Virus record (IMG/VR): IMGVR_UViG_3300030090_005424
Location: 1 to 24,117 of that record
Length of the DNA: 24,117 bases
Reading direction: 5' to 3' (one strand)
Source of the DNA: a virus
The notes below the pieces were generated by a model that worked only from the letters and a program-made list of their open reading frames with translations, had not been told where the DNA came from and did not search any database. Shown here piece after piece: positions 15,392 to 23,406 of the stretch; positions within the stretch are counted from its first letter, which is position 1; each line of letters begins with the position of its first letter. A program made the translations under genes and the position numbers.

Positions 15392-15418
15392 TAAATACGA
15401 AGTGTATTGGATAATATA
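15392..15418 (+). promoter_or_regulatory. Phage promoter-like motif, copy 1
   Basis: TAAATACGA at 15392-15400, a 7-base spacer, then TGGATAATATA at 15408-15418. It lies 33 bases before a 42-residue gene and is the first of seven aligned copies. The exact 7-base spacing in all copies and the repeated place before genes support a shared promoter, presumably with GATAAT as the -10 element. Confidence 0.75.
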
Positions 15419-15591: not shown

Positions 15592-15618
15592 TAAATACGA
15601 CTAACATTGGATAATATA
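15592..15618 (+). promoter_or_regulatory. Phage promoter-like motif, copy 2
   Basis: TAAATACGA at 15592-15600, spacer CTAACAT, TGGATAATATA at 15608-15618, followed by an A/T-rich leader of repeated AAATT units to the ATG at 15663. It matches copy 1 in both boxes with no mismatch. Confidence 0.8.
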
Positions 15619-16105: not shown

Positions 16106-16237
16106 ATGAAAAAAAATAAAACATACAGAGTTTGTTTCGACAAGAAATTAAACAAGTTAAATTCAAAACAATTACTTCGTTTTTACAACGGTACTCCTTA
16201 CAAAGTATTGATAAATGAAAATAAAAATACAAACTAA
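16106..16237 (+). CDS. 43-residue protein of unknown function
   Basis: The frame MKKNKTYRVCFDKKLNKL continues with NSKQLLRFYNGTPYKVLI and ends ENKNTN, stop TAA at 16235-16237. That TAA is also the start of promoter copy 3. The basic, beta-like character recalls a small nucleic acid- or protein-binding fold, without a recognisable motif. No own promoter copy precedes it, so it shares a transcript with the membrane micro-protein or is read from the cleaved product. Confidence 0.55.
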   Translation: MKKNKTYRVCFDKKLNKLNSKQLLRFYNGTPYKVLINENKNTN

Positions 16238-16261
16238 ATACGTTACTCGTTGGATAATATA
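16235..16261 (+). promoter_or_regulatory. Phage promoter-like motif, copy 3
   Basis: TAAATACGT at 16235-16243 (last base differs), spacer TACTCGT, TGGATAATATA at 16251-16261. Its first TAA is the stop codon of the preceding gene. Confidence 0.75.
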
Positions 16262-16540: not shown

Positions 16541-16567
16541 TAAATACGATACTAACTGGATAATATA
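16541..16567 (+). promoter_or_regulatory. Phage promoter-like motif, copy 4
   Basis: TAAATACGA at 16541-16549, spacer TACTAAC, TGGATAATATA at 16557-16567. It lies 21 bases before the ATG at 16589. Confidence 0.78.
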
Positions 16568-17519: not shown

Positions 17520-17600
17520 ATGACACCTATAGATTTAGCAGTTTACCTATTGTTTTATTATTACTTAGTAGCACTAAAAAGATTTATTTATACAAAATAA
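17520..17600 (+). CDS. 26-residue membrane micro-protein
   Basis: Begins at an ATG one base after the previous stop. It encodes a hydrophobic helix with many Tyr and Leu (IDLAVYLLFYYYLVALK) ending RFIYTK. Its stop TAA at 17598-17600 is the first three bases of promoter copy 5. The length is close to the limit of what can be called a gene; spacing consistent with neighbours is the main support. Confidence 0.4.
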   Translation: MTPIDLAVYLLFYYYLVALKRFIYTK

Positions 17601-17624
17601 ATACGATTACTATTGGATAATATA
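17598..17624 (+). promoter_or_regulatory. Phage promoter-like motif, copy 5
   Basis: TAAATACGA at 17598-17606, spacer TTACTAT, TGGATAATATA at 17614-17624, 34 bases before the ATG at 17659. Its TAA is also a stop codon. Confidence 0.78.
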
Positions 17625-17658: not shown

Positions 17659-17871
17659 ATGAATTATTGTAGATGTGGTGAGCCCGTACACCCAGTTAGA
17701 CAAAAATACGGGTACAAAACATGTGTTAGTTGTAGTGGAGTTGAGCGTGTAGCTTCAGCTCCAGTCATAAACCATAAAACTGGTAACACAATACAAATTG
17801 TTACTCAAGAAGTAGCAAAAGCATTACATAAAGCAGGTAGACGTAAAGGTTACGGCACTTGCCTTAGATAA
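17659..17871 (+). CDS. Small zinc-ribbon protein
   Basis: The 70-residue protein carries C4-x-C6 and C22-x2-C25 in YCRCGEPVHPVRQKYGYKTC followed by VSCSG, a four-cysteine zinc ribbon comparable to the DksA/TraR C-terminal finger and seen in small marine phage proteins. The second half (PVINHKTGNTIQIVTQEVAK) is strand-helix, ending basic. Such proteins may bind RNA polymerase or nucleic acid. Its stop codon (17869-17871) begins a ninth-base copy of the promoter upstream box, and the structured RNA follows directly. Confidence 0.72.
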   Translation: MNYCRCGEPVHPVRQKYGYKTCVSCSGVERVASAPVINHKTGNTIQIVTQEVAKALHKAGRRKGYGTCLR

Positions 17872-17873
17872 AT

Positions 17874-17990
17874 ACGAGCGTGGCGCGTGAGATGTGTATA
17901 CGGTGAGAAACTGGTTGGAAGTCCACACCGTAATCTTACACGGTTGAACCTGTATAATAAGTGCCGTGTGTACTCACTTGGCCACCTCGT
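17874..17990 (+). ncRNA. Structured RNA candidate of unknown class
   Basis: The closing helix pairs ACGAG 17874-17878 with CTCGT 17986-17990 and, after one bulged C (17879), GTGGC 17880-17884 with GCCAC 17981-17985. A further helix pairs GTGAG 17887-17891 with CTCAC 17973-17977. Inside are two hairpins: ACGGTG 17900-17905 with CACCGT 17926-17931, and ACACGG 17938-17943 with CCGTGT 17964-17969. GGTT 17913-17916 and AACC 17947-17950 could form a loop-loop contact. The GC content is well above that of its flanks, and it fills almost the whole intergenic gap. It does not match a riboswitch or ribozyme I can name. Confidence 0.7.
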
Positions 17991-18013
17991 TTTATAAAGT
18001 AAATTAAATAACT

Positions 18014-18214
18014 ATGATTATATTAACAGTATTAGACTTTGAAGACGGCTTAGTATATCAGTATGATATAGAAGTCTTTCAAGATGGTAGTAAACCAGAA
18101 CTAGATGCAGATGACTTTGAAAAACTATTAGTAGAACAAGGTCACAACTTAAAAAATTGCGAGTGGATGTCACATAGCGATAACACTCTTAACAAGATTA
18201 AAATAGAATTATAA
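18014..18214 (+). CDS. Small acidic protein of unknown function
   Basis: This 66-residue protein is MIILTVLDFEDGLVYQYDIEV and then an acidic helix (ELDADDFEKLLVEQGHNLKN) and a terminal strand. It is the first gene after the structured RNA, about 23 bases behind it, so that RNA could act as its leader. A one-base overlap (TAATG) couples it to the next gene. Similar short proteins occur in marine phages; no role is recognised. Confidence 0.68.
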   Translation: MIILTVLDFEDGLVYQYDIEVFQDGSKPELDADDFEKLLVEQGHNLKNCEWMSHSDNTLNKIKIEL

Positions 18215-19246: not shown

Positions 19247-19316
19247 AGATGTTGACAAAAGGGTGTTAATAGCTGAGGCTAAAGGCGCTAAAGTATACGC
19301 TACGTTTTACAAGTAA
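19173..19316 (+). CDS. 47-residue basic protein
   Basis: The frame MTKKRKLNSKNPKYKTKAEV continues KATTKDVDKRVLIAEAKGAK and ends VYATFYK, stop 19314-19316, just before promoter copy 6. The C-terminal strand-helix-strand pattern (RVLIAEAKGAKVYATFYK) is well formed and not expected by chance. Strongly basic. The overlap with the frame at 19112 is one of two possibilities: both are used, or only this one is real. Confidence 0.55.
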   Translation: MTKKRKLNSKNPKYKTKAEVKATTKDVDKRVLIAEAKGAKVYATFYK

Positions 19317-19323
19317 TACAAAA

Positions 19324-19350
19324 TAAATACGAACACTAACGGATAATAAT
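19324..19350 (+). promoter_or_regulatory. Phage promoter-like motif, copy 6
   Basis: TAAATACGA at 19324-19332, spacer ACACTAA, then CGGATAATAATATA, which has C for T at the first place of the second box and one extra AAT. It lies 24 bases before the ATG at 19374. Confidence 0.72.
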
Positions 19351-20452: not shown

Positions 20453-20792
20453 ATTTGCCACACGAGAGCAAGGTGTATCATTTAACGATCACCCACAAAA
20501 GATACACGCACAATTTTACTGTCATTATGACGGCTATCCTGAAGGCTTAGGTGTAGAAATAGCAGAGTGTTTTACTAAATACGGTAAAATATATAGCTGG
20601 GAAATAGAAGACCTAAACCATAAGCATGACGACCTTGAATATATATATTACGTATGGCAACATCCAATGAAAGAAACGTGGATAAGTATATTTAAAGTAA
20701 GCTGGACAGATATAAGTGGTGAGTGTATATTTGTAGGTCGACCGAGTGATCTTATAGATAGATACAAACCAAATACGAACACTGATGGATAA
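20430..20792 (+). CDS. MSTRA-type small phage protein
   Basis: The frame opens at 20349, but the ATG at 20430 gives the natural N-terminus MSTRAQVRFA. With an aromatic and histidine-rich centre (HAQFYCHYDGYPEGLG), the 120-residue protein matches the 'STRA...HWDGYPEG' pattern I know from unnamed proteins of cyanophages and other marine phages. That fold is unassigned. Its C-terminus contains promoter copy 7, so the promoter lies inside the coding sequence. Confidence 0.65.
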   Translation: MSTRAQVRFATREQGVSFNDHPQKIHAQFYCHYDGYPEGLGVEIAECFTKYGKIYSWEIEDLNHKHDDLEYIYYVWQHPMKETWISIFKVSWTDISGECIFVGRPSDLIDRYKPNTNTDG

Positions 20793-20796
20793 TATA
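20770..20796 (+). promoter_or_regulatory. Phage promoter-like motif, copy 7
   Basis: CAAATACGA at 20770-20778 (C for T at the first base), spacer ACACTGA, TGGATAATATA at 20786-20796. It overlaps the end of the previous gene and sits only 3 bases before the ATG at 20800. Confidence 0.75.
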
Positions 20797-22045: not shown

Positions 22046-22663
22046 ATGTCACAAAGAAACCTAACATACCTCAACAATAATCGCATCGTCTATAGGCGTT
22101 TACCAATTACTGATAAACCTACTATCGAGACTAATCAGTACATGTTCTATGAAAATGGTACGCACGAGTGTTACGAGTTGTTTAGATCGTCAGCAAAGAT
22201 TACAACATATAAATCTTTGAAGTGGCATTTGCTTGTTCTATGGTATTTAAATCCTAAACTTAATCCTGATAACTTTAAGTATCTAGCAGAGTACATAGTA
22301 CACAAGCCAAACGGCTTTGTAAGTTTCAACGTGTCAGAACGTTTACTAGAAAAAGTTATATATGGAGTTAGCATGTCTGATCTTGATAGACCACCTAAAA
22401 ATAAATTACGTAAAGTAATATTTAAACCTTTTACTGGTTTATCAAAAGAACAAAAGCTATCTATTGTAGGCTCTTTAATAGGTGTTACAAATAAGATATG
22501 TTCTGACGACGTTTATCAATGTATGATAGATATACATGACCTAGGTAAAAAGATTACAATAGGGCGTATCGCTGGCCTATTAGACTGTTCATCACGAACT
22601 ATACACAGACACATGTGCGAAGATTTAAAGCGTGAAAAAGAATTATTGAACCAACAACTATGA
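22046..22663 (+). CDS. HTH DNA-binding protein, probable regulator
   Basis: This 205-residue protein ends in a clear helix-turn-helix, about residues 166-197: ITIGRIAGLLDCSSRTIHRHMC, with the second helix SSRTIHRHM as the recognition helix. The first 110 residues are a mixed domain with several aromatic residues and no recognised motif. It overlaps the sigma factor gene by four bases (ATGA), so the two are translated together and may act together. It may be a transcription regulator or a replication initiator; the HTH alone does not decide. Confidence 0.7.
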   Translation: MSQRNLTYLNNNRIVYRRLPITDKPTIETNQYMFYENGTHECYELFRSSAKITTYKSLKWHLLVLWYLNPKLNPDNFKYLAEYIVHKPNGFVSFNVSERLLEKVIYGVSMSDLDRPPKNKLRKVIFKPFTGLSKEQKLSIVGSLIGVTNKICSDDVYQCMIDIHDLGKKITIGRIAGLLDCSSRTIHRHMCEDLKREKELLNQQL

Positions 22664-23406
22664 AAAAATATAATCAAGAAAACTACAATAGATATAGAGC
22701 AGACCTAAAAAAGTCTCAACCTAAAAATAAAAAATGGAGTGATTACACGCGTGATGAATTAGTAGCTAAATTTCTTCCATTAGTAGAAAACTTAGCACGT
22801 AAATTTTCTACATCAAACCAAGCTTCTGGCGTTATGACAGTAATGGATATGATGGCCGAAGGTCATGTTGGTCTTATCAAAGCTATAGATAAAATTGTAT
22901 GGAAAACTATATATGAATCAGAAAATCCTGAACGTAGATTAAAATCGTTTTTAGCTAAACGTATTAAAGGCGCAATACGCAGAGCTATTGATAACAACAG
23001 AGGTAGCATGCGTATACCTGAACATAAGCTAAACGAAATAAGAAAACAGTTTGATGATAATAAGAAAGCTGTTGAAATGTATTTTAACTCTGTATTTCAG
23101 TCTATTGACTCATTTGAAAACAAAGATGCAATACTAGAAATACCAGATGAAACAAATGAATATAATAACGCTAATTTAAACAAGTGTTTATTAAATATAT
23201 TAAATAAATTCTTAAATAAAAAAGAGTCTGATGTAATTAAAATGAGTTACGGGCTTGATTGCGATAAAAAATCTGCTACTGAAATAGCTGATCATTTAGG
23301 TATCAAAGGTAGTAGCTCATACGTTCGTGTTTCGCAGTTAAAAAAGCAAGCTATTGAAAAATTAAGAGAAGCTACAAAACACTCGCAAGTGATTGACTTT
23401 GAATAA
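22660..23406 (+). CDS. Sigma-70-family RNA polymerase sigma factor
   Basis: This 248-residue protein carries region 2 (about residues 25-115), with LPLVENLARKF, VMTVMDMMAEGHVGLIKAID, then FLAKRIKGAIRRAID and NNRGSMRIPEH (region 2.4/3.0-like). It then has region 4 (about 185-240), with SDVIKMSYGLDCDKKSATEI then HLGIKGSSSYVRVSQLKK. This suggests it redirects the host RNA polymerase to phage promoters. It is the obvious candidate to recognise the seven-fold TAAATACGA-N7-TGGATAATATA motif, but it may instead drive the leftward late block. The linkage is inference. Confidence 0.88.
   Translation: MKKYNQENYNRYRADLKKSQPKNKKWSDYTRDELVAKFLPLVENLARKFSTSNQASGVMTVMDMMAEGHVGLIKAIDKIVWKTIYESENPERRLKSFLAKRIKGAIRRAIDNNRGSMRIPEHKLNEIRKQFDDNKKAVEMYFNSVFQSIDSFENKDAILEIPDETNEYNNANLNKCLLNILNKFLNKKESDVIKMSYGLDCDKKSATEIADHLGIKGSSSYVRVSQLKKQAIEKLREATKHSQVIDFE

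Follow-up and report, generated by a model that had tools for sequence, protein, structure and literature searches.

What occupies the gap between a zinc-ribbon gene and a gene of unknown function in this phage, and what might a structured RNA do at such a place? The window, that is, the whole stretch of DNA analysed here, is a virus record of 24,117 bases that encodes a portal protein, a terminase, a sigma factor and a DNA ligase, together with a GroEL/GroES-like gene pair as judged from the translations. The virus is tentatively assigned to hosts among the Bacteroidota, since the assignment rests on one binned contig (L136, from a Sphingobacteriales MAG). The zinc-ribbon gene (17659-17871, + strand, 70 aa), for which Pfam and PHROGs gave no family, has relatives upstream of the RNA or of an RNA array in many related phages, and the gene beyond the gap (18014-18214, + strand, 66 aa) is not the same among relatives.

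Predicted structure and transcription

The original prediction had described an unclassified structured RNA in a GC-richer block of this gap, built from an 11-position closing helix, a second helix and two hairpins. The block indeed has a GC content of 0.50 versus 0.30 in its flanks, and the minimum-energy fold of 17869-17990 (-40.7 kcal/mol, z = -2.56, with 4 of 200 shuffles as good) contains the closing helix, the second helix and both hairpins as drawn. From closing helix to closing helix, the RNA, which belongs to type 1 of the three frame types described below, spans 17874-17990 on the + strand; it starts 2 nt after the zinc-ribbon stop codon and ends in TTTT (T run, 17990-17993). The 11 positions of the closing helix P1 are made up of ten pairs and one bulge: on the 5′ strand (17874-17884), ACGAG (17874-17878) pairs with CTCGT (17986-17990), C17879 is bulged, and GTGGC (17880-17884) pairs with GCCAC (17981-17985). 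P2 is an invariant helix of 5 bp between GTGAG (17887-17891) and CTCAC (17973-17977), and the 3′ part of the RNA (17973-17990) accordingly consists of the P2 strand, an internal loop TTG and the P1 strand GCCAC-CTCGT. The core internal loop has a conserved 5′ side (17892-17898, consensus AYGUGUN) and the 3′ side N′UCUUA (17933-17938). Hairpin 1 (P3, 17899-17932), with a stem of 17899-17905 and 17926-17932, bears an exchangeable tip common to L136, and hairpin 2 (P4, 17937-17970), with a stem of 17937-17944 and 17963-17970, is optional, being present in 12 of the 44 members; all of these elements lie on the + strand.

A scan of the window for the phage promoter AATACGA-N9-GATAATA gave 11 matches with at most two mismatches, versus 0.44 expected. 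Seven of them are near-perfect, with zero or one mismatch (15394-15416, 15594-15616, 16237-16259, 16543-16565, 17600-17622, 19326-19348 and 20772-20794). The copy at 17600-17622 (+ strand) is an exact match that stands before the zinc-ribbon gene and 251 nt before the RNA, and it probably drives both. A phage sigma factor gene is located at 22660-23403. The nine bases at the RNA start had originally been equated with the upstream promoter box, lacking a -10 box. The 9-mer TAAATACGA is literally present at 17869 and the second box is indeed absent after it, but as a promoter half-site the match is a coincidence: it consists of the zinc-ribbon stop codon TAA (17869-17871) and the first bases of the closing helix. 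The same 9-mer occurs six times in the window and is carried by 3 of the 27 type-1 members. A half-site at the RNA start was rejected on these grounds, the real promoter being the one before the zinc-ribbon gene. Elsewhere in the window, a stop codon and an adjacent promoter form an empty slot (19314-19326, + strand), in which L011 and L013 carry a type-2 RNA.

A constant frame with covarying hairpins

Related loci were collected by a search with the DNA ligase of the window, which yielded 80 phage loci, and a nucleotide search of these loci revealed that both ends of the RNA are strongly conserved and its middle is variable. Exact-pattern scans widened the member set, which then numbered 44 distinct sequences and fell into three frame types: type 1 (27 members, among them the window and L136), type 2 (15) and type 3 (2). 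The frame of the window is thus present in 26 other phage contigs, and the same inner core in 17 more with two other frames. In type 1, 35 of the 36 compared positions are invariant in 27 of 27 members, the exception being the bulged base. Ascertainment accounts for part of this invariance, since exact patterns were the route to many of the members; nine type-1 members fetched via the unrelated DNA ligase gene have the same invariant frame, and the invariance therefore does not come from pattern searching only. Judged from the sequences, the recurrence and invariance of the frame are far beyond chance.

In 25 of the 27 type-1 members, the RNA is 3′ of a zinc-ribbon gene, the exceptions being L010, where the RNA is in another slot, and L104, which ends before the gene; at least four different next genes follow the type-1 RNA among the relatives. 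A covariance-model search for divergent members found none beyond the known set and none in other clades, and the conservation could therefore reflect a young RNA family instead of strong constraint. When 50,697 phage records were searched at the nucleotide level, only three 32-nt matches came up, and these were judged to be due to chance.

At L019:8439, the entire core of a type-2 frame has given way to a hairpin module, about 50 nt long, which serves as a tip in L098, L137 and L138, and even the core therefore behaves as a module. A conserved noncoding element, CTGGCGCGTTGAGATGTGT..CATCACCAG..GTTGAACAGATC, resembles the 5′ half of the core (L049:4390, L050:4073, L053:3720, L055:3452, L056:4293 and L074:4056). 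As a candidate divergent core at these same loci (L049, L050, L053, L055, L056 and L074), GGCGCGTTGAGATGTGT was excluded, since it contains one additional base and lacks a matching 3′ half.

For the covariation analysis, we aligned trimmed cores of 39 distinct sequences, from which the loops were cut out and hairpin 2 was removed so that the stems align. In this alignment, both strands of hairpin 1 varied at the first four stem pairs, with all four Watson-Crick types, and 92.3% of its cells were paired. The covariation score of the trimmed-core structure was 0.449, versus 0.085 after shuffling (0 of 500 shuffles as high), and sliding the pairing partners destroyed it. Across the 12 sequences that have P4, its pairing reaches 97.6%, and the substitutions from A-U to G-U agree with an RNA on the + strand; every core examined lies on the same strand as its flanking genes. 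P1 and P2 are invariant and hence provide no covariation evidence, so that both rest on the fold and on conservation. A conserved coding frame, named in the original prediction as evidence against an RNA, was not found in the 27 members. The RNAs are 69-193 nt long, in all three phases modulo 3 and with stop codons in most frames, and the region is therefore not coding. The window RNA thus combines the invariant P1 and P2, the core AYGUGUN/N′UCUUA and the covarying plug-in hairpin of the type-1 modular family.

Exchange of hairpin tips between frames

Across the relatives, the hairpin tips are hypervariable and almost always paired, and tips that are identical or nearly so turn up in more than one frame, tRNA-like and tmRNA-like frames among them. 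A 46-nt tip is common to the type-2 RNAs of L077 and L116, the type-1 RNA of L104 and another frame in L006 and L124, and in the three frames it is mounted on the stems CGC/GCG, CAC/GTG and GAAG/CTTC. Similarly, a 27-nt tip is common to the type-1 RNA of L005 and the tRNA-like RNA of L107, one tip serves as hairpin 1 of L006 and as hairpin 2 of L107, and the tip CAAGCTG..CAGTAG is common to the type-2 RNA of L013 and the tmRNA-like RNA of L062. The sequence GGCGTAAGCAAAGG is present in the type-1 RNA of L004, the tRNA-like RNA of L005, the tmRNA-like RNA of L060 and a further frame, and a further joint module carries nested tips in L133 and L116. When all swapped blocks were tested globally for location on their own complementary stems, the signal was weak (p = 0.049), because the set mixes frames and tips. 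Exchange of modules is an established feature of these RNAs, alongside their covarying predicted structure, strand, noncoding nature and invariant frame.

Hairpin 1 of the window recurs in L136 only, with one change. In an exact search of viral contigs, its tip gave no match, and the tip of hairpin 2 matched L139 only (AT-rich, without such an RNA), which was judged to be chance. Two finer points of the original prediction did not hold up against these comparisons. A GGTT/AACC loop-loop contact between the hairpins is not borne out by L136, which has the same hairpin 1 and no hairpin 2. The alternative hairpin around 17938-17953, taken as a sign of a two-state switch, sits in hairpin 2, whose tip occurs in no other RNA, and the stem that it would compete with is the hairpin 2 stem, kept with covariation in 12 sequences.

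Neighbouring RNAs in related phages

In the relatives, arrays of small structured RNAs with short AT-rich linkers between them lie 3′ of the zinc-ribbon gene, and these arrays include tRNAs, tmRNA-like domains without an ORF and other structured RNAs. The type-1 RNA directly adjoins a downstream tRNA-Arg in L003 and L010, and no tRNA was found in the window by ARAGORN. The slot RNAs of L070, L045 and L044 scored 61-65 bits versus the Rfam tmRNA cut-off of 47, and two further ones (L030 and L078) scored as tmRNA below this cut-off. The tmRNA-like slot RNAs are 72-164 nt long, which leaves no room for a tag reading frame. Among the acceptor stems listed for them, 34 distinct sequences have G3-U70, the alanine identity pair read by alanyl-tRNA synthetase, and 2 have A3-U70.

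In these tmRNA-like RNAs (L070:8215-8296, L045:7303-7383, L044:969-1049, L030:7883-7967 and L078:7794-7917), the messenger part is replaced by a short hairpin. A second RNA of tRNA-like form, 157-215 nt long, has the acceptor GCCCAAG/CTTGGGC, a canonical T-arm and large modular inserts; it was observed at L014:6250 and L116:9021 and on the minus strand of L096 and L107 (6458 and 2598 of the reverse complement, respectively); ARAGORN reported no tRNA for it in L014.

Discussion

On balance, we consider it probable that the locus encodes a small, stable noncoding phage RNA, derived from the zinc-ribbon transcript and acting in trans, with a fixed docking frame and exchangeable heads. The RNA would be made within the transcript of the zinc-ribbon gene, given their presumed co-transcription, and excision would probably release it as a stable, trans-acting product. 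As to such processing and trans action, we infer from the tRNA-like and tmRNA-like company that excised trans RNAs, which would work close to the translation machinery or counter RNA-directed defences of the host, are favoured. The fixed frame, formed by the closing helix, the second helix and the conserved internal loop, would carry one or two exchangeable hairpins, and in the relatives the RNA would be one bead in a stable-RNA array that draws on a common pool of hairpin modules. The constancy of the frame and its invariant internal loop suggest one fixed partner, on which the frame may dock; speculatively, this could be the ribosome or a protein encoded by the phage or its host. The tips, replaced wholesale yet paired, point either to heads whose targets change or to filler for which folding is the sole requirement. 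As heads, they would be interchangeable and renewed by module exchange, possibly under an arms race with a host RNA-targeting defence or the translation machinery, which we offer as speculation. We further propose, tentatively and with some doubt, that a library of hairpin heads shared by several unrelated stable-RNA frames might yield combinatorial, fast-changing trans RNAs directed against host translation or defence.

The 2-nt gap after the stop codon and the TTTT end count against a trans-acting RNA, as they would also suit a 3′-UTR or terminator role. Such a cis-acting element would cap the 3′ end of the zinc-ribbon mRNA, where it would stop exonucleases or terminate transcription; any folded block would suffice for this, which would leave the tips free to vary. 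Consistent with this, several type-2 RNAs start 0-1 nt past the stop codon, and T runs end the type-2 RNAs right before the next promoter. However, a scan of the window for intrinsic terminators found none, P1 closing a loop of about 100 nt that is followed by four T. Furthermore, the gene at 18014 has no AATACGA-N9-GATAATA-type promoter of its own in front of it, according to the window scan, and transcription must therefore read through the RNA. The conservation of the frame is also far above the needs of a mere block, and the RNAs occur as tandem beads, with tRNAs between the RNA and the gene. A role as a 3′-UTR element thus appears unlikely.

The recurrence of tips in many unrelated frames, together with the presence or absence of hairpin 2 at one fixed point (the window versus L136), could also reflect selfish or neutral hairpin modules, which would have spread among phage RNA loops by recombination or transposition and been tolerated where the frame was undisturbed. 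This account is quite improbable, as the cores are in one orientation only, the stems under the tips covary, and no transposase or target duplication was identified; the frame is invariant, and a function is therefore needed for the frame at least. A ligand-controlled switch or self-cleaving ribozyme, to which the conserved internal loop and the alternative hairpin drawable in the window might point, is hardly credible, given that no Rfam covariance model of a riboswitch or ribozyme class matched the window at an E-value limit of 10, that the alternative hairpin lies within a tip absent from every other RNA, and that there is no constant downstream gene to control.

Swapping of whole hairpins among RNA classes that are otherwise unrelated, all within a single group of viruses, would add a new mode of RNA diversification. 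The frames and heads would also provide a natural set for finding the binding partners of such phage RNAs, and the tmRNA-like RNAs without an ORF beside tRNAs, most of them with G3-U70, make a link to ribosome rescue directly testable.

Relation to known RNAs

The label of an unclassified RNA was confirmed, in that comparison of the window with Rfam gave no match at the gathering cut-off or at E ≤ 10. The open-licence literature on phage RNA arrays, tmRNA-like phage RNAs and modular hairpins contained no description of such an RNA. Taken by itself, the window RNA would count as a new orphan RNA of phages, and we rate hairpin exchange among several frames, including tmRNA-like ones, as new in kind within the open-licence literature covered.

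GOLLD and ROOL are phage and prophage RNAs of unknown function found near tRNA islands, with sizes from about 660 to over 800 nt, and GOLLD has a constant region and a less conserved one (PMC12286853). The window RNA is likewise a phage-encoded structured noncoding RNA; it lies beside tRNA genes in some relatives and not in the window, and the RNAs of its family are far smaller (69-193 nt). The Rfam models of GOLLD and ROOL matched neither the window nor its relatives. We know of no sharing of GOLLD or ROOL tips with other RNA classes.

With tmRNA (RF00023), the likeness is that the tmRNA-scoring slot RNAs of relatives carry hairpin modules also found in the frame type of the window; the difference is that no tag reading frame is present in them. 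Neither Rfam nor ARAGORN detected a tmRNA or a tRNA-like domain in the window RNA, and that domain (T-arm and acceptor stem) is present only in other slot RNAs of the relatives. Phage tRNA arrays are similar in that a single slot contains a tandem series of structured-RNA beads, some of which are genuine tRNAs in the relatives, but most of the beads here are non-tRNA and hairpin tips are common to the beads. Finally, the mobile hairpin elements of organelle genomes are short hairpins that occur at several places in structured RNAs; in contrast, the tips described here are renewed on a few conserved frames and in one orientation.
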